From Synechococcus sp. JA-3-3Ab (GTDB lineage: Bacteria; Cyanobacteriota; Cyanobacteriia; Thermostichales; Thermostichaceae), in assembly GCF_000013205.1 (NCBI RefSeq), contig NC_007775.1:1794501-1858500 (forward strand): 64,000 bases of DNA, given 5' to 3'. This document shows, piece by piece, positions 6,309-63,195 of the stretch; position 1 is the first letter of the stretch; every line of letters begins with the position of its first letter. The notes beneath the pieces were generated by a model. The model saw only the letters and a program-made list of their open reading frames with translations. It did not search any database and had not been told where the DNA came from. The translations under genes and the position numbers were made by a program.

Positions 6309-8108
6309 ATGGGGATCGCGCAGGGTGGGGTTGCCGCCCCTTCTCAGCTAAGCCGTCAGCATTTCACGGTGCGGATGCCGGAGCCGGCCAATCACCTTTT
6401 GGAGGTGGAACTACAGATCCAAGAGGTGGATCCAGAAGTACCTCTGCAACTGCGGCTGCCGGTGTGGACGCCGGGATCCTACCTGGTGCGGGAATATGCC
6501 CGCCATGTGCAAGAGTTTCAGGCAGCAACGGAGCAAGGGATCCCTTTGGCCTGGCGGAAGGTAGATAAGCACACTTGGGAGATCGAGCCGCCCCGCTGTT
6601 CGGCTGTCGCGATCCGCTATCGGGTCTACGCCTACGAGCTGACGGTGCGCACCAACCATTTGGATCTCACCCACGCCTACTTCAACGGGGCGGCGCTCTT
6701 TCTCTACGTGCCCGGTCGCGAGCGGGAGCCCTACACCTTGACGATAATCCCTCCCAAACCCGACTGGCACGTCGCCATCAGTTTGCGACCTTTGAGGTCT
6801 TCTTCTGAGGATGCTGCTTCCGGCCAGTCTTTTGTGGCGGCAGACTACGACGAGCTGGTGGATAGCCCGGTGGAGGTGGGCCTGCACCAGTTGCGGTCGT
6901 TTGCGGTGGAAGGGATCCCTCACTACTTCGTGGTCTGGGGAGCGGGCACCCTAAATTTGGAGCAAGCGGTGGCCGATGCCGAGAAAATTGTCCGGGCCAC
7001 GGCGGCGTTTTTTGGCGAGCTGCCCTACGACCGCTACTGGTTTATTGTGCATTTGTCAGCCGGGGGATTTGGCGGCCTGGAGCACAAGTACAGTGCCACC
7101 CTCAATTATTCTGGACTGGAGCTGCATCAGCCTCAGTCCTACCGTCGCTTTTTGGCGCTGCTGGCCCATGAGCTTTTCCATGCTTGGAACGTCAAGCGGC
7201 TGCGCCCTCTAGCTTTGGAGAAAATTGACTACAACCAAGAAAACTATGTGGACTGCCTCTGGTTCTGCGAAGGGGCAACCAGCTACTACGAAAATGTTAT
7301 CTTGCTGCGAGCAGGGATCCTCAGTGCCAAAGAGTTTCTGCAGATCCTATCTGAGCAAATTAGCCGGCTACAGCGCACGCCAGGTCGAGCTGTACAGTCA
7401 CTGCAGGAGGCCAGTTTCGACGCCTGGATCAAGCTCTACCGTCCCCACGAAAATAGCCTCAACAGCCAGGTTTCCTATTACCTAAAGGGCGCTTTGGTCT
7501 GCTGGCTGCTAGATCTGCACATTCGCCACCTCTCAGGGGGGCAGGGATCCCTGGACACGGCCCTGCGGGATCTGTGGCAGCGCTTTGGTCGGACAGAGAA
7601 AGGCTACAGCAACCAAGACTTGCAAGAGGCGTTTGAGCGGGCAGCCGGCGCCGATCTCAGCCCCTTTTTCGCCGCCTATGTGGACGGCACGGAAGAGCTA
7701 GACTACAACGCCTACCTCCACCCCTTTGGCCTCACCCTCAAGGTTCACTTCAGCCGACCCAACCCTCCCCCCTACCTGGGCCTCAACTTCAACGGCGAAG
7801 GCAATCGCATCAGCGCCGTCGAGATGGGATCCCCCGCTCAAAAAGCCGGCATCTGGGCTGGCGATGAGTTGGTGGCCTTGGATGGCTTCCGGGTAAGCGC
7901 TGCCAACTTGCCAGAACGCTTGGCGGCCTACCAGCCCCACCAGGCCATCTGCCTGAGCGTCTTTCAGGGCGATCAGTTGAAGCACTTCTGGATCCCCTTA
8001 GATCCACCTCGCCCGGATGTGTACACCCTCGAAGCCCTGCCTGAGCTCACTCCCGCCCAGAAAGCGCTCCAGCAGGGCTGGCTGGGATCCCTTCTGGCTC
8101 AAGAGTAA
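6309..8108 (+). CDS. M61 family metallopeptidase with PDZ domain
   Basis: A 599-residue protein of the glycyl aminopeptidase family (M61). The zinc-binding motif HELFH is at 287-291, and Glu321 in CEGATSYYE is the probable third zinc ligand. The N-terminal 200 residues form the beta-rich domain usual in this family, beginning FTVRMPEPANHLLEVE. The C-terminus (about 500-590) is a PDZ domain (GSPAQKAGIWAGDELVALDG). No signal peptide is seen, so it is probably cytoplasmic. GAGGAAAG precedes the ATG with good spacing. The natural substrate of cyanobacterial members is unknown to me. It stands between ntcA, divergent, and an AT-rich gene of foreign appearance. Confidence 0.88.
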   Translation: MGIAQGGVAAPSQLSRQHFTVRMPEPANHLLEVELQIQEVDPEVPLQLRLPVWTPGSYLVREYARHVQEFQAATEQGIPLAWRKVDKHTWEIEPPRCSAVAIRYRVYAYELTVRTNHLDLTHAYFNGAALFLYVPGREREPYTLTIIPPKPDWHVAISLRPLRSSSEDAASGQSFVAADYDELVDSPVEVGLHQLRSFAVEGIPHYFVVWGAGTLNLEQAVADAEKIVRATAAFFGELPYDRYWFIVHLSAGGFGGLEHKYSATLNYSGLELHQPQSYRRFLALLAHELFHAWNVKRLRPLALEKIDYNQENYVDCLWFCEGATSYYENVILLRAGILSAKEFLQILSEQISRLQRTPGRAVQSLQEASFDAWIKLYRPHENSLNSQVSYYLKGALVCWLLDLHIRHLSGGQGSLDTALRDLWQRFGRTEKGYSNQDLQEAFERAAGADLSPFFAAYVDGTEELDYNAYLHPFGLTLKVHFSRPNPPPYLGLNFNGEGNRISAVEMGSPAQKAGIWAGDELVALDGFRVSAANLPERLAAYQPHQAICLSVFQGDQLKHFWIPLDPPRPDVYTLEALPELTPAQKALQQGWLGSLLAQE

Positions 8109-8189: not shown

Positions 8190-9314
8190 ATGACTCTGCT
8201 TTTAGGTCTTCTAATTGGATTGGCTATTGGTTTCTGCCTGGGCGTTTATACCTGTAGGCTCACTCAAAGAGCTGATAGTCAGTTACTGGATGAGATTCTA
8301 AGAAAGTTACAAGCTGATCTTGAGGGCTTCAAACTTCATATCTCAGAAAGTCTGTCCGAAAGTTACCAAAACTTCCTTCAGCATTTAGCTGAGTACAGAA
8401 GTCAGCTAGTTAAGAACATAAGTAACCAGCAGAATATCCTGAGCAGGCTATTAGAAAGTACAGAAAAAATTTCCCAGAATCTAAGCTCAAGTTCTAGCCT
8501 TCAAAAGACGAAGGAAACTAACGAGCGAACTGCTGGCGCGCGACTCAAGAGTTTGCCGCCAGGGACGATTAGCCTTGAACAGGTGAAAATAGGGGTATTT
8601 CTGTGGTCTAGGGACATAAGGATGAAGAACCTGATCCCATCTAGTAAAAAAGCCGATGCAGAAGGAGAACTCGATAACAAGCTGAACTGGATATCAAACC
8701 TTATGGGTCAGAGGTACTCGCTGATCGAGAAGCTTTACAAAGAAATTAAATCTGGCATTGGAGAAGAAAAGGCCTTAACTCTTTGCTTAAAAGGCAACTC
8801 CCCGGAAGTGATAAGTTATAGCTGCCAACTTGCTTCCACTCTACATAAGGTTAATTTCTTAGAGGAATATAACTACTCAAAATCCTCCAAAAACCTGAGG
8901 GTAAAGCTAAGCAAGTCTACAGAGGCAATCAAGTTCCTATCTGGAGATTGGCTGGAGAGATATGTCAAACAGCAACTGATCAAGTTTGCTAGAGAGCAGG
9001 GACAGAAGATCGATTTTTCCTACATCGCAAATGAGGAAGTTACTTTGCCCGACGGTAGCGACTTTGAGATCGATCTCTTCTTCCACATTAACAACCGATT
9101 CTACTGGATAGAGTCGAAGACCGGCAGCTATAGAGACTGTATAGAGAAGTACTCTTGGCTCGCCTCCGAAATGGGTCTCGGCCCAGATCAAGTCTTTCTG
9201 GTCTTGGCAGATGTTGATCAAGAGACGAGAAGTAGGATCTACTCCTCCTATAATCTTTCAGCTATTAGTGTCGAGGAGGTTGAGTCTCTGCTGTACAGAA
9301 TTGTGAGGAGGTAG
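8190..9314 (+). CDS. Membrane-anchored PD-(D/E)XK nuclease-like protein
   Basis: A 374-residue protein not recognised by name. Residues 3-21 are one hydrophobic helix, and about 30-98 are a probable coiled coil. A middle domain (about 128-250) leads into a C-terminal domain with GDWLERYV (Glu256), DFEIDLFF (Asp295) and YWIESKTG (Glu308, Lys310). That spacing matches the E...D...ExK core of PD-(D/E)XK nucleases. The WLE...EID...IESKTG style recalls the DUF1887/Card1-like restriction-endonuclease domain, but no CARF domain is evident. Base composition is about 40% GC by eye, far below its neighbours, suggesting transfer. It stands alone between unrelated genes. Nuclease activity and a defence role are inference. 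Confidence 0.7.
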   Translation: MTLLLGLLIGLAIGFCLGVYTCRLTQRADSQLLDEILRKLQADLEGFKLHISESLSESYQNFLQHLAEYRSQLVKNISNQQNILSRLLESTEKISQNLSSSSSLQKTKETNERTAGARLKSLPPGTISLEQVKIGVFLWSRDIRMKNLIPSSKKADAEGELDNKLNWISNLMGQRYSLIEKLYKEIKSGIGEEKALTLCLKGNSPEVISYSCQLASTLHKVNFLEEYNYSKSSKNLRVKLSKSTEAIKFLSGDWLERYVKQQLIKFAREQGQKIDFSYIANEEVTLPDGSDFEIDLFFHINNRFYWIESKTGSYRDCIEKYSWLASEMGLGPDQVFLVLADVDQETRSRIYSSYNLSAISVEEVESLLYRIVRR

Positions 9315-9321
9315 GCCCAGT

Positions 9322-10209
9322 CTAAGCTACCACCTTGACAGCCTGCTCCATACACCACCAGGGATCCTCGGCAAAAGCTGGCATGGGCGTGCTGCCCGCC
9401 TTGCCCAGAATGGCCAGCCTGACTTCTCTATCCAGACGGGATCCGGAGCCATAGGGATCGTCAGAGGGGGGCTCCAGCCTTTGTCCTAGAGGGGGCATTG
9501 CCATAATGCCCGGCTGCATGCCGGTACTGGTGACCCAGATTTTGAAGCGATCCACCGCCGTTTCTGTGTCTTCGGGCAGTTGCATCTGGAGCAGATAGCG
9601 AGGGCCAGAGCCAACTAATACGCTTTCGCTGGGGCGCAGGCGGGCAGGAGAGTCCGGCTGGTAGGGATAGACTAAACCGACGCTGCACTGCCGTTCGTCA
9701 AAGACTGTTACATAGACGTGCACCGGCGTAAGGGCCCTGTTGCGCAGGGCGATGGCGAGGTTGCGGCCTGCTTGAATTTGCACCTGGCCTTGGGGATCCC
9801 GCGGCAAAGGGCTAACTTCAGCAGGGCTAGAGCCACTGGCCGGCGTTTCCAGTTGCAGAAACTCTACTTCCAGAACACTGCTCAGAGCATCGCTGGCAGG
9901 TTGCAGGTTGAGGAGGTTGTCGAAGGCGGCCACATGTTCCAGCAGCCGCACCAGCTTGCGGGGCAGAGCCTGTGGCTTTTTTACCGGGATCCGAAAGGCT
10001 GCCAGCGCCACCTCTTCCTCCCGTCGGTAGAAGTGGTAGATGGCATCTGGCAGCATCTCTACCCGCAAGTCCGCTGCTTCTGGGTCGGTGTAGGCTAGAA
10101 GCGGCGAGGCCGGCAGAGCCGCCAGCAACTCGGCAACAGGCATTTGCGCTTGGCTGGGATCCGCACAGGTGAAGGCCACCCGCAACGGCTGAAACCGGAC
10201 GGCAGACAT
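9322..10209 (-). CDS. DUF4384-like hypothetical protein
   Basis: A 295-residue protein with no signal peptide. The region about 150-240 (LAIALRNRALTPVHVYVTVFDE, then SVGLVYPYQPDS and LVGSGPRYLLQMQLPED) resembles the beta-rich DUF4384-type module that usually follows a caspase-like peptidase domain in cyanobacteria. Here no peptidase domain is present: the N-terminal 140 residues have no His-Cys dyad motif, and nothing similar lies upstream in the spacer. It converges on the nuclease-like gene with only a few bases between the stops. It could be an adaptor lacking its enzyme or an unrelated family; assignment is weak. Confidence 0.5.
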   Translation of the reverse strand: MSAVRFQPLRVAFTCADPSQAQMPVAELLAALPASPLLAYTDPEAADLRVEMLPDAIYHFYRREEEVALAAFRIPVKKPQALPRKLVRLLEHVAAFDNLLNLQPASDALSSVLEVEFLQLETPASGSSPAEVSPLPRDPQGQVQIQAGRNLAIALRNRALTPVHVYVTVFDERQCSVGLVYPYQPDSPARLRPSESVLVGSGPRYLLQMQLPEDTETAVDRFKIWVTSTGMQPGIMAMPPLGQRLEPPSDDPYGSGSRLDREVRLAILGKAGSTPMPAFAEDPWWCMEQAVKVVA

Positions 10210-13324: not shown

Positions 13325-14278
13325 ATGAAAGATTTCTATAGCGAGCTGGAGGTAAAGCCCGACGCGACCTCTGAAGAAATCAAAGAGAGCTACAGGCGGC
13401 TTGCCAAAGAGTATCATCCCGATCGGCTTCCTCCCGGCACACCGGAAAAGGCCCGACGGTACATCGAAGAAAAATTTAAGTCCCTTCAAGAAGCCTATTC
13501 AGTGCTGAGTGATCCCGTAAAGCGGAAAGCCTACGATTCCCAGAGGCTTTCCCAAACGAAAGGAAACGAACGTGATCTAGGTCTAAAAGCCAAACCAAGC
13601 TACAGCACACAAGACGGCAGCACTTGGCCGTTTGACCCTGACAAGATACAGAAAGCTGCCGAGGAGATAGAGCTGCGGAGGCGAAGGATTGAAACCAACT
13701 ATAACCAGAAAATAGAGCAAGTGAAGTCAGAGGTAAAGAGAAACCTTATTTTAATCGGCATTAAGGAAGAGGATGCCAGAGTTGACTATACCTTCCTTAC
13801 TAGAGACGAAAACATACAGAGCTGCTTTGTCTTTTTGTTTTTGGGCTTGTTGGCTTTCTTAGGAGGCTGGGGATGGATTGGTGCTATACTCGTACTCATT
13901 GCTTTGGTATCCGCTTGGTCGGCATTTTTTGAATCTGGGTATAGTAAAGAGCAAGTGGAAAAAGCCAAAAGTCTCCAAGAAAGGGCAAAGTCAGAAATAG
14001 AACTGCGCGAGAAAGAAAAAAGCTCAGAGCTCTCTCAACTGACGCTTTACTGCAGGAGCAGGATCGACTACTTTAAGAGTCTCCCCCTTGAGTCTTTATC
14101 CCCTGAGTTTATAAGCGGGCTTAGCGGAGAGGATCAACTCTTCCTGTTGACAGCGATAAAGGAAAGAGCCGACGCTGAAAAGCTAAAGGAGGATCTGAAA
14201 CTAGCAGCTGGGATCGCTGTCGGTATTGGCATATTAGCCGTCTTGTTTGGTTTGGGCGGCGGATTCTACCCCCATTGA
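13325..14278 (+). CDS. J-domain membrane protein
   Basis: A 317-residue protein. An N-terminal J domain (residues 3-70) has the HPD motif at 31-33 that stimulates Hsp70 ATPase. A charged, probably coiled-coil region at 105-140 follows. Two adjacent hydrophobic helices lie at about 167-183 and 186-202, another coiled coil at about 207-240, and a third hydrophobic segment at 292-312. There is no DnaJ zinc finger or C-terminal substrate domain, so this is a type III J protein that would recruit DnaK to a membrane. The DNA is AT-rich (about 40% by eye), like the convergent gene that follows within 10 bases. It could be part of a small transferred unit. Confidence 0.8.
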
Positions 14279-14287
14279 TCCTGCTTC

Positions 14288-15528
14288 CTAAGCCGGCAGG
14301 AGCAGTAAAACTTTGGGGCCTGGATCCTCAGACGAGTTTTTTGGCGGCAAAACCAGACTTTGCCACTCTTGGTAGCTGAGGCCAAGCCGAGTCATTTCAG
14401 TGATTTCGTATCTGTAGCCTTCCAGTCTCCTGTCCAATTCGATCATGGACTGGGCAGCCGCTATAACCTGATTTGCTCGACTGATGATAGCTTCTCTCCG
14501 AGGAGGATCCCAAACTATGCCATCCAAGACTGTCCACCAGCTTGGATCAATCAAACGTGGGGCAATGAGGGCAAGGATAGCATTCTTAGATCTTGTCGGC
14601 ATACTATCAAAATAGGATTCAATGCTTTGTGCGCTGAAAATATCTGGTCGTATATATTTGTCAAACAGCTTATCCACATCCGATTCACTCTTTACATACT
14701 TGAGAATCTCCACGACGCTTGATAGGCTAACTCCTTCTTGGTAAGCCTTGTGAAGATATACTGAAGGTTTCGTGGTCAACAAAAGCTCGACATACTTTCT
14801 AATACGAGGTCTTAGAATCTCCTTTGCCTCCGCCAGGCGTTTCAGAGCTATCTCATGCTCCTCCATCTCCAGGTAGCATTCAATCTCTGTAACATAGACT
14901 AAAGATAGGATTAAGATGTACTCGCAAGCCAAAATGCCGTCGTTCTTGTTCCAATTGGAATCCCACGCAGCTAGATAATAGTGCTCAGCCTCAAGCAGAG
15001 GCTGAATGACCTCGGTTACCAATCGCTTCCTGTTGGTCGAAGAAGACATCTTCAAAGCTATTTCTGCAACGTCGATAGCAGACTTAGCTTTGGCAAGAAG
15101 CGATCTATCTATGGATTCTCGAAGACTTTCTACGGATGCTTGAAGACTTTGGATTCGAGAATCGATTTGATTGAGTTTAGAGGTAACGACTGCAAAGTCT
15201 ACGGCAGACAAACCCAAGTTAGTTAGACCAATAGCAGCATTGAATTTGGTTAAGCCTAAGACAGTGTTTAGTTTACCTCTAGTGTCAATTAGTCTTAGGT
15301 TGATCTGCCTCAACTGAATGTTGGCAATAATCCCGTTGACTATGTCCACTGCCGGGATGCAATTGCTAATGCTATCTGCGAGTGTCAAGCCTCCAGTTTC
15401 TCTCAGCCAGGCCACCACCCGCTTAGAGGCCACTTCTCGCACCACGCCGCCTACGCCTCGTAGGTTCCATTCTGCAGGCCTTTCAGGATGGCTTCGGGGA
15501 TCTCGAGGATGACTTGCTCGGCAACCAT
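14288..15528 (-). pseudogene. Unknown coiled-coil protein, likely frameshifted N-terminus
   Basis: An open frame from about 15445 (GTG) encodes 385 residues with a mildly hydrophobic helix around 30-50, a coiled coil around 85-115, and a long helical C-terminus; I do not recognise it. Just upstream, in another frame, an ATG at 15528 encodes MVAEQVILEIPEAILKGLQN then GTYEA, and stops at TAG 15453-15451. The 385-residue frame read upstream gives VGGVVREVASKRVVAWLRE. Joining the two by restoring one base near 15452-15460 yields a smooth protein of about 410 residues. The frameshift may be real, programmed or an assembly error. The DNA is AT-rich like the convergent J-domain gene. Confidence 0.6.
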
Positions 15529-25636: not shown

Positions 25637-27799
25637 ATGGCTCCCAACCCAGCTCTACCCCCCCATCTGTTGTCTTCTGCTTTTCTCCTTGAGGATTGGG
25701 AGCAGGGGCATTACGAGCACGTCATTCAGGTCTTGCAGCAGGGGCTCGAGCAGGGATCCCTGTCTCCAGAGCTGTATTGGGATCTGGGATCTGCCTATCT
25801 CCTGCTGGGTCGGGAACTGGAGGGGCAGCTTGCGTGGCAAGAGGGCTTGGCAATGCTGCATGCAGAGGGCGTGGCCGAATCCGAGGCCGCTTACCACCTG
25901 CTGAGGGGCTTGCAGGCTTTGGCGGAAAGGCTGTGGGAGAAGGGCCATTGGCCGCAGGCAGCAGCTCTGTATCGCCAGCTTCTGGAGGTGGGGGATGGGC
26001 TTTCTGGGCTGGAGCCGTCTTCTGGCCAGGCTTTGGCTGCCCACCGCATTGGCCTGACCCAAGAGCGGAGCCGGCTGTGGAGCTCGGCAGCGGAGTGGTT
26101 TGAGCGGGCTTGCCAACGGGATCCGGCGGCAGCAGAGAGTTTTTGGCGCTGGGGCTTGGCCCTGATGAAGCTGGGCCGTTTGCGAGAGGCGATTTCCCCT
26201 CTACAGGAGGCTGCGCGGCTGCGCCCTGAGTGGGGGGATCCCTGGGTACAGATGGGCTTGGCGTGGCTGGATCTGCGGGATCCAGTTCAGGCTGTGCGGT
26301 GTTTCCAGGCGGCTGAGGCGCGGGGCACCGGGACGGCGCAACTCTACAGCTACTGGGCGGAAGCGGAAGTGCGGTTGGCTCACCCTGAGGCCGCTTGGGA
26401 GAAGGTTTGCCGAGCGGTGGCAGCGGAACGGAATTGGGTGCAGGCGTGGTGCGAGGGCAGCGGCGGGGAAAGCCCTCTGCGATCTGGACTGGAGCAGGCA
26501 TGCAGGGGAGAGGGATCTGCGAGGATCCCCGATTTCCTGTATTCGGCTTGGCGGCAGCGTTGGGCTCCAGAAGGCGTTGCCCCTCCAGCAGACTCCTTTT
26601 CCCAGAGCACTCCCCCTACAACCGACTTCTGGCCGGTGCCAACCCAAGGCTACCTCACCACCCGACAGTGGCATCAGGCCACGGGCGAAGGGGACTACCA
26701 ACTGCTGGATCCAGGGGGGGTTCTCTGTCTAAAAGCGCCCCCTGCCGCTGATCCCGACATTTTGCAAAAGTTGCGCCCGCAGCGCATCCCCTTGGCAGAG
26801 ACCTTTGTCGCCCAGATCCCCCGAGGATCCGTCCACGTGGGCCACTATCCCCGCCACCTCTACGCCAGCTTCGCCAGTGGGGTGCTCACCCGCCGGGGAG
26901 AATTGCTCGCCGATCTGTCCCTGAGCTTGCCGCCGCCGGAGTTCCTCGACTGGGACTACAGGCCAGATCACCTGCAGCACCACCCCCTGCTGGGCTTGCC
27001 CCATCTCCCCCCACCGATCCCACTGGATGGCCCCGTTGCCCTTTTGCCCTTGGGGGCAGTTAATTACTTTCACTGGATGGTGGATATTCTGCCGGCCCTC
27101 GATATCCTGCAGCGGTCGGGCGCCCTGGAAAAGGACATCCCCATCTTGATCCACGGGTATCAGGGAAAACCCTTCCAGGTGCAGAGCTTGGCTGCTTTGG
27201 GGATCCCAGTCGAGCGCATCCTCAGCTTTGAGCAGTTGGGGGGATCCCATCTGCAAGCCCAGAACCTGATCGTGCCCTCAGCAGGCGCTCCGGTGGGGTG
27301 CTTGACGCCTAGGGGATTGGAGGTGCTGCGGCAACTGGCCCAGCCGAGTTTCTCCATTGACCCCTTACAACCGCGGCGAATTTACATCAGCCGTCGGTCT
27401 GCCCGCTGGCGGCGGGTGATCAACGAAGCGGAGGTGCTGGCCTGTTTGCACCCTTGGGGATTTGTACCGGTGCAGATGGAAACCCTCTCTCTTCAAGAGC
27501 AAATAGCCCTGATGCAGGGGGCAGAGGCGGTGATCGGGATCCACGGGGCGGGCCTAACCAACCTCGCCTTTTGTCAACCCGGCACCACCGTCATCGAGAT
27601 CTTGCCCAGCAATGCAGTGCTTCCCTATTTTTGGAGTATTGCTCAGGTGGCAGGGTTAAGGTATTTCCCCTTGGTGGCGCCTGTTTGCGATCCGGCTTTG
27701 GTGGCTCTTCTTTCCAGCCCCGATTTGGATCGAGAAGATGCCTGGGTTCGGATCCCGGACTTGCTGAATGTGCTGGAACAGACAGGGATCAAGGGATGA
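25637..27799 (+). CDS. TPR protein with GT61 (DUF563) glycosyltransferase domain, copy A
   Basis: A 720-residue two-part protein. Residues about 10-270 hold TPR-like helical repeats (for example FWRWGLALMKLGRLREAISPLQEAARLRP). The C-terminal half is a family 61 glycosyltransferase, with LLPLGAVNYFHWMVDILPALD, RIYISRRSARWRRVINE and the late IGIHGAGLTNLAFCQPGT block. Such proteins probably glycosylate extracellular polysaccharide or protein; the acceptor is unknown. The ATG at 25637 is preferred over an upstream TTG because copy B starts at the matching point. The paralogue at 60982 is roughly 75% identical, the most diverged of the duplicated genes. The stop codon abuts the 3' end of a convergent tRNA gene. 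Confidence 0.85.
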   Translation: MAPNPALPPHLLSSAFLLEDWEQGHYEHVIQVLQQGLEQGSLSPELYWDLGSAYLLLGRELEGQLAWQEGLAMLHAEGVAESEAAYHLLRGLQALAERLWEKGHWPQAAALYRQLLEVGDGLSGLEPSSGQALAAHRIGLTQERSRLWSSAAEWFERACQRDPAAAESFWRWGLALMKLGRLREAISPLQEAARLRPEWGDPWVQMGLAWLDLRDPVQAVRCFQAAEARGTGTAQLYSYWAEAEVRLAHPEAAWEKVCRAVAAERNWVQAWCEGSGGESPLRSGLEQACRGEGSARIPDFLYSAWRQRWAPEGVAPPADSFSQSTPPTTDFWPVPTQGYLTTRQWHQATGEGDYQLLDPGGVLCLKAPPAADPDILQKLRPQRIPLAETFVAQIPRGSVHVGHYPRHLYASFASGVLTRRGELLADLSLSLPPPEFLDWDYRPDHLQHHPLLGLPHLPPPIPLDGPVALLPLGAVNYFHWMVDILPALDILQRSGALEKDIPILIHGYQGKPFQVQSLAALGIPVERILSFEQLGGSHLQAQNLIVPSAGAPVGCLTPRGLEVLRQLAQPSFSIDPLQPRRIYISRRSARWRRVINEAEVLACLHPWGFVPVQMETLSLQEQIALMQGAEAVIGIHGAGLTNLAFCQPGTTVIEILPSNAVLPYFWSIAQVAGLRYFPLVAPVCDPALVALLSSPDLDREDAWVRIPDLLNVLEQTGIKG

Positions 27800-27883
27800 T
27801 GGGATCGGAGGGACTCGAACCCTCACGTTCTTGAGGAACAACGGATTTTAAGTCCGTAGCGTCTACCATTCCGCCACGATCCC
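27800..27883 (-). tRNA. tRNA-Leu (anticodon TAA), copy A
   Basis: An 84-base tRNA read on the minus strand. The acceptor arm GGGATCG pairs with CGATCCC, discriminator A. The anticodon loop CTTAAAA gives anticodon TAA. A long class II variable arm and the T loop GGTTCGAGTCC are present. No CCA is encoded. There is no intron, although the group I intron of many cyanobacterial tRNA-Leu(UAA) genes sits in this anticodon. The 3' end touches the stop codon of the convergent gene. An identical copy lies at 63112-63195. Confidence 0.97.
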
Positions 27884-28039
27884 AATCTGTCGGCAATAGC
27901 CGTACTACTCTACCAAACTGCTTGCCTTGGGGGGGCAAGTCTTTAAGTTGGTTCACCCAGCCCTGCAGTGGAGGGTATGAAGTAGGGGATTGCTGCCCCT
28001 GCTGATGGGATCCCTGCTGTGCCCGCTGGCTTGAAGCTC

Positions 28040-63111: not shown

Positions 63112-63195
63112 TGGGATCGGAGGGACTCGAACCCTCACGTTCTTGAGGAACAACGGATTTTAAGTCCGTAGCGTCTACCATTCCGCCACGATCCC
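63112..63195 (-). tRNA. tRNA-Leu (anticodon TAA), copy B
   Basis: Identical in all 84 bases to the tRNA at 27800-27883, again without intron and without encoded CCA. Sequence identity extends to the block TAGCCGTACTACTCTACC just upstream of the gene, then ends. Confidence 0.97.

Follow-up and report, generated by a model that had tools for sequence, protein, structure and literature searches.

A predicted membrane-anchored nuclease of the Card1/Can2 type without a CARF domain, encoded by a solitary gene in Synechococcus sp. JA-3-3Ab

The nucleases Card1 and Can2 are known effectors through which type III CRISPR systems respond to a second messenger. In the related enzyme Cdn1, the CARF domain, once it has bound its ligand, draws the nuclease domains into contact, whereby the active site is formed, and dimerisation is required for activity (PMC12825302). 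Can2 provides immunity against plasmids and phages and cuts both DNA and RNA, and mutation of E276/D278 in SthCan2 abolishes its activity (PMC7969007). A different kind of nuclease is found in the Shield protein ShdA of Pseudomonas, which is bound to the membrane. On its own, ShdA confers protection from phages and reduces transformation, and in vitro it degrades DNA (PMC10270631). The CoCoNuT authors described ShdA as a transmembrane helix and a long coiled coil followed by an RmuC-like nuclease (PMC11090510). The protein considered here has a predicted nuclease of the former kind in an arrangement that recalls the latter.

The DNA that we analysed, referred to below as the window, is a stretch of 64,000 nucleotides from Synechococcus sp. 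JA-3-3Ab (NC_007775.1, positions 1,794,501 to 1,858,500). An open reading frame at 8190-9314 on the forward strand was confirmed to be present in it and encodes 374 aa. Its GC content of 0.432 (around 43%, with a GC3 of 0.496) compares with 59% for the window overall; leuB and the genes on either side have 0.59-0.62 (GC3 0.67-0.75). The following features were assigned to it:

8190..9314, + strand: coding sequence of a predicted membrane-anchored, CARF-less nuclease of the Card1/Can2 type, 374 aa (profile, alignment, AlphaFold2 and fold matches)
8190..8255, + strand: aa 1-22, predicted transmembrane helix (hydropathy of aa 1-19; AlphaFold2 helix 2-27)
8277..8489, + strand: aa 30-100, single long helix, probable coiled coil (AlphaFold2 helix 30-100; ZapG-like transmembrane-coiled-coil profile)
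8490..8573, + strand: aa 101-128, flexible linker (pLDDT below 50 at aa 103-121)
8574..8918, + strand: aa 129-243, connector (wHTH-like) domain common to Can2, VC1899 and Cdn1 (structural alignment from aa 132)
8919..9311, + strand: aa 244-374, PD-(D/E)XK nuclease domain (profile and fold matches, AlphaFold2)
8955..8957, + strand: E256, invariant acidic residue in the first nuclease helix, within GxWLE (30-row alignment)
9066..9074, + strand: E293-x-D295, predicted metal-binding pair equivalent to E276/D278 of SthCan2 (profile alignment, 30-row alignment)
9111..9119, + strand: E308-x-K310, ExK motif (profile alignment, 30-row alignment)

A preliminary description of this DNA had recognised a nuclease domain resembling DUF1887/Card1, and this structural part of the reading is well supported. 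When a profile of eight relatives was searched against PDB sequences, it matched Cdn1 (3.3e-9), Can2 (2.8e-7), VC1899 (8.4e-7) and Card1 (2.6e-4), a likeness far greater than chance would give. The PADLOC model CARF4-CARF_PDDEXK was found at aa 222-367 with an E-value of 2.7e-12, the match being confined to the non-CARF part of the model, and in relatives PADLOC models align across the connector region. The Pfam family Card1_endonuc (PF09002) was matched below threshold at aa 245-316 (E 0.0017, 18.4 bits against a gathering score of 26.4), and two relatives, L006 (28.9) and L046 (27.9), exceed that score. An AlphaFold2 model computed with a 30-row alignment as input has a mean pLDDT of 88 and a pTM of 0.67, with pLDDT above 90 for most of the chain beyond residue 160, and the predicted fold is that of a restriction endonuclease, its PD-(D/E)XK elements being helix 244-269, strands 276-285, 291-300 and 303-310, helix 318-327, strand 335-339, helix 344-354 and strand 357-360. 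In a Foldseek search, the top 20 matches, which are all those with E below 0.001, are VC1899, Cdn1, Can2 and Card1. Structural alignment by VIA-align was best with Can2 (Z 18.6, rmsd 3.2, 204 residues aligned), followed by VC1899 (Z 16.0, rmsd 4.8, 239 aligned) and Cdn1 (Z 16.0, rmsd 4.2, 230 aligned), in which case residues 132-374 of the model lie on residues 149-399 of Cdn1. Given that these fold matches extend over aa 132-374, the window protein corresponds to everything that a Card1/Can2-type enzyme has outside its CARF domain. The middle domain also resembles ribosomal protein S8 (Z around 7), but this is below the level at which folds can be discriminated and was set aside.

As for the catalytic core, the residues named earlier (E256, D295 and E308-x-K310) were the right ones, but the set was incomplete, as E293 of the E-x-D motif is also invariant. 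In fact, E256, E293, D295, E308 and K310, together with G252, W254 and N281, do not vary across the 30-row alignment, which contains relatives from many phyla, and the ELD motif aligns with E276 and D278 of SthCan2. Outside this set, arginine takes the place of K310 in the same-genus copy of genome G004, and the lysine is gone in copies fused to an FGE-sulfatase domain.

The absence of a CARF sensor, also proposed in the preliminary description, was borne out. Neither Pfam nor PADLOC matched a CARF domain, and aa 1-128 were modelled as two helices (2-27 and 30-100, the latter a single helix) and a stretch that is disordered at 103-121. According to the model, a hydrophobic helix, a long helix and a flexible linker stand where the CARF domain would be. 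The first helix has a mean Kyte-Doolittle hydropathy of 2.45 over residues 1-19, in agreement with the N-terminal membrane helix suggested before, and from this value and the helix prediction we infer a membrane location. Arg23 and Arg27 follow this helix, so the C-terminus is likely to be cytoplasmic, and hardly any residues would remain on the outer side of the membrane. The prediction of one long helix makes a coiled coil at aa 30-100 probable.

Comparison with named systems places the protein close to several of them and within none. It has in common with Card1, Can2, Cdn1 and VC1899 (DUF1887, CARF4-PD-(D/E)XK, type III CRISPR) a homologous connector and nuclease with the same catalytic residues, but it lacks their CARF domain, begins with a membrane helix, coiled coil and linker, and is encoded by a solitary gene that is not linked to cas genes. 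In ShdA, too, one polypeptide combines a transmembrane part at the N-terminus with a nuclease at the C-terminus (PMC10270631), but its nuclease is an unrelated RmuC domain, whereas that of the window protein is of the Card1 type. The predicted transmembrane helix and long helix ahead of the nuclease are features held in common with RmuC and ShdA. Membership in RmuC was rejected, since Pfam and PADLOC found no RmuC domain in the window protein up to an E-value of 10; RmuC was not among the structural matches either, an absence that excludes nothing. Two PADLOC entries are closer in content: PDLC01903 (CARF4-CARF_PDDEXK_TM) covers a Card1-type nuclease with a transmembrane segment, but is named as a CARF protein, and PDLC01131 (stand-alone PD_DExK) is described as belonging to the same family as the CARF-fused nuclease, but the window protein matches it at only 0.0033. 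Neither describes a transmembrane helix, coiled coil and nuclease without CARF. ZapG/YhcB has the same succession of transmembrane helix and coiled coil, but no nuclease domain; a ZapG-like Pfam transmembrane-coiled-coil profile matches aa 8-106 slightly below its cut-off (2.8e-7), and membership was rejected because the NCBIfam ZapG equivalog scores 22.5 bits against a cut-off of 150. Assignment to McrBC/CoCoNuT was also rejected, as no McrB-type GTPase gene lies beside the window gene or beside the relatives that were inspected.

The chromosomal site can be compared among four species of the genus. It is delimited by two genes:

6309..8108, + strand: left flank, M61 glycyl-aminopeptidase/PDZ gene, conserved even where the nuclease gene is absent (Pfam, site comparison)
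9322..10209, - strand: right flank, conserved gene of unknown function (site comparison)

The nuclease gene occupies this one site in three species (the window genome G000, G003 and G004), and the site is empty in the fourth, G002, in which the M61 peptidase gene and the conserved gene are adjacent, about 100 bp apart. Between G000 and G004, the nucleases are 43.7% identical and the flanks 87-89%; between G003 and G004, the values are 79% and 92-93%. Synonymous sites between G000 and G004 are saturated in the nuclease and not in the flanks, which points to an exchange of divergent alleles at this site and not just to fast change of the protein. The lateral transfer previously read from the low GC content thus holds in part: low GC, the empty site in a sister species and a divergence beyond that of the neighbours, even at synonymous sites, speak for it, but the idea of a recent transfer oversimplifies matters, as AT-rich copies sit at this position in two further species of the genus. 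In the comparison of G003 with G004, w is 0.24 in the nuclease (0.175 in the core) and 0.15 in the flanks, so that selection maintains the protein. Nevertheless, a stop codon directly ahead of the core interrupts the G003 copy, which was assembled from a metagenome, and this stop, together with the arginine of G004 in place of K310, suggests that activity may be dispensable in some species. The window gene lies outside any defence island, and no recurring partner gene was found around the copies inspected.

Elsewhere in the window there is a second AT-rich patch (13325-14278 on the + strand and 14288-15445 on the - strand, GC 0.46-0.47). One of its products has a DnaJ domain, a hydrophobic segment and long helices and weakly resembles LeoBC (2.1e-5); the other is a helical protein that weakly resembles JukB (2.4e-4). 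On the minus strand, two tRNA-Leu genes 35 kb apart (27798-27884 and 63112-63195) share the anticodon taa.

Relatives of the nuclease were matched in 26 of 291 cyanobacterial genomes. Two of these matches are not clean: in G148, the nuclease belongs to a type III CRISPR locus, where a transposase gene separates it from a CARF-like gene, and in G270, only the membrane-coiled-coil part is shared, on an McrB-like protein. A collection scan, for which we used the profile of a closer set (A2), as the eight-row profile (A1) had no sufficiently conserved stretch, yielded 34 loci that span many phyla, including Bacteroidota, Chloroflexota, Deinococcota, Bacillota and Pseudomonadota as well as the archaeon Methanobrevibacter. 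Judged by sequence, the family is thus a widespread one of solitary, CARF-less, putative nucleases of the Card1/Can2 type. We found no description of such a family in the open-licence literature, and it may be mentioned elsewhere. Its members outside the cyanobacteria are nearly all soluble, and most are about 310 aa long and headed by a short LLERIAxALERIA-like helix; a hydrophobic helix is present in just one of them, the Desulfonatronospira copy L093. On the tree, the membrane label requires six changes, at least four of which are forced by well supported branches, and anchors have therefore been gained or lost repeatedly. No relatives were found in viral contigs or in phage and plasmid records, and a viral protein structure library gave weak matches only.

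The N-terminal part is swapped within the family while the nuclease is kept. For instance, three proteins that form the most distant clade on the tree consist of a transmembrane segment, a periplasmic domain, a second transmembrane segment, a coiled coil and the nuclease:

L052, 385-2154, + strand: nuclease fused to a periplasmic domain
L054, 397-2184, + strand: nuclease fused to a periplasmic domain
L058, 1498-3462, - strand: nuclease fused to a periplasmic domain

The same periplasmic domain, which has no Pfam match, also heads cyanobacterial proteins with HATPase, HicA toxin, NERD and DUF2325-like outputs (L152-L158), and these fusions are, by their sequences, apparent transmembrane receptors with nuclease or toxin outputs. 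In three further loci (L084, L085, L086), a degenerate nuclease, with the lysine of E-x-K lost, is part of a protein of 1,083-1,158 aa with a C-terminal FGE-sulfatase domain; a MoxR-type AAA+ gene adjoins, and L085 and L086 also have a TIR gene (L085 is typed as TIR with EAD9). The McrB-like AAA+ protein of L056 (1441-3384) and L087 (6063-8168) shares its N-terminal membrane-coiled-coil part with the nuclease L004 (57% over 111 aa), and its gene heads a run of genes on the same strand. In the type III CRISPR locus L088 (6894-8593), an IS200-like transposase gene on the opposite strand parts the CARF-like and Card1-type nuclease genes, and in an uncultured Methanobrevibacter (L097, 9974-13701), 220 bp separate the gene of a soluble nuclease from a Csm6 gene, after which comes a second CARF-like gene. 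In several relatives, the C-terminus is extended by about 200 aa (L119 7007-7564, L120 920-1477, L122 2463-2969); this extension has no Pfam family and a poor model (pLDDT 65), and its commonest match is the ROQ RNA-binding domain of Roquin, which is not significant (E around 0.2).

Cas10 genes occur in 23 of 24 cyanobacterial carriers and in 137 of 265 non-carriers (p 7e-6; p 0.02 at the genus level), counts that are uncorrected for phylogeny, thermophily and completeness and make a link suggestive. Among the 30 non-cyanobacterial carriers (genomes of L090-L122), 21 have Cas10, never on the same contig as the nuclease. The background varies strongly by taxon, as shown by one Bacteroidota class with Cas10 in 19 of 198 genomes. 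In the window genome, the Cas10 genes lie at about 0.89 and 2.57 Mb and the nuclease at 1.80 Mb, and a PF09002 search of this genome gave no further match.

As ShdA is the closest working model, the most likely role is that of a stand-alone, membrane-proximal defence nuclease, dimerised by its coiled coil and working in a ShdA-like manner, to which we assign a probability of around one half. The protein would be a metal-dependent PD-(D/E)XK nuclease, the non-CARF half of a Card1/Can2-type enzyme standing alone; its transmembrane helix would tether it to the inner face of the membrane, the coiled coil would dimerise it in place of CARF and without a ligand, and it would protect the cell by cleaving, close to the membrane, nucleic acid of foreign origin, namely phage DNA, transforming DNA or possibly RNA. 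We infer nuclease activity, membrane location, dimerisation and a defence role for the protein. The preliminary description had put forward the blocking of phage-DNA entry or quality control as conceivable roles. The behaviour of the gene resembles that of a defence gene, given its patchy presence (26/291), its single site with an empty counterpart, a divergence far larger than that of the flanks and the saturation of its synonymous sites, and relatives in settings of conflict also count for defence, namely, the Csm6 neighbour in L097, the loci with MoxR and TIR-EAD9, and the McrB-like protein with the same N-terminus as L004. Against defence, the gene is in no defence island, has no recurring partner and has no relatives on phages, plasmids or viral contigs. 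Furthermore, a nuclease without a known sensor would be toxic if always active, and something would have to restrain it. Because other members of the family carry sensor-like modules, the main rival is that the membrane and coiled-coil part senses the state of the envelope or membrane and gates a toxic nuclease, leading to dormancy or death upon phage attack or envelope stress in place of direct restriction. The proteins with a periplasmic domain (L052, L054, L058), the use of that domain with HATPase, HicA, NERD and DUF2325-like outputs, and the swapping of N-terminal parts ahead of a constant nuclease all favour such a one-component receptor, but we consider it rather unlikely for the window protein, whose near lack of residues on the outer side of the membrane leaves nothing for periplasmic ligand binding, and the periplasmic clade is the most distant on the tree. 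That the family as a whole is a general class of one-component receptor nucleases, with swappable membrane, coiled-coil and periplasmic inputs and no second messenger, is a tentative and somewhat doubtful idea.

RmuC-type proteins have a transmembrane segment, a coiled coil and a PD-(D/E)XK fold, in the same order as here, and the window protein could likewise be a membrane-bound recombination or repair nuclease, as proposed for RmuC, with no role in defence. The purifying selection between G003 and G004 (w 0.24) fits such a maintenance enzyme, but the RmuC model is not matched, and a housekeeping gene would not be expected to be patchy, to be missing from its site in a sister species or to diverge so widely, which makes this proposal unlikely. 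A helper of unlinked type III CRISPR systems, which a separate CARF protein or a further signalling product would activate in trans, would fit the association of carriers with Cas10, the position of L097 beside Csm6 and the two Cas10 genes of the window genome; nevertheless, with no CARF domain in the window protein, Cas10 distant in its genome and never on the nuclease's contig in the 30 other genomes, and nine carriers without Cas10, we regard it as very unlikely. RNA cleavage in the manner of membrane-bound degradosome nucleases is the least probable of these roles: Can2 (PMC7969007) and Cdn1 (PMC12825302) do cut RNA, and the C-terminal extension of some relatives is weakly ROQ-like, although not significantly so (E around 0.2), but a patchy distribution and fast divergence do not match what an ordinary turnover enzyme would show.

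If the stand-alone defence nuclease is the correct reading, the gene would be a compact one-gene defence candidate outside defence islands, beyond the reach of searches based on gene neighbourhoods. In any case, it raises the testable question of whether a Card1-type nuclease can be switched through membrane or coiled-coil input alone. A broad family that keeps the nuclease while swapping its sensor for a coiled coil, a membrane anchor or a periplasmic domain would illustrate the rewiring of such effectors. Should the receptor class prove real, cyanobacteria would have transmembrane receptors that respond by cleaving nucleic acids.
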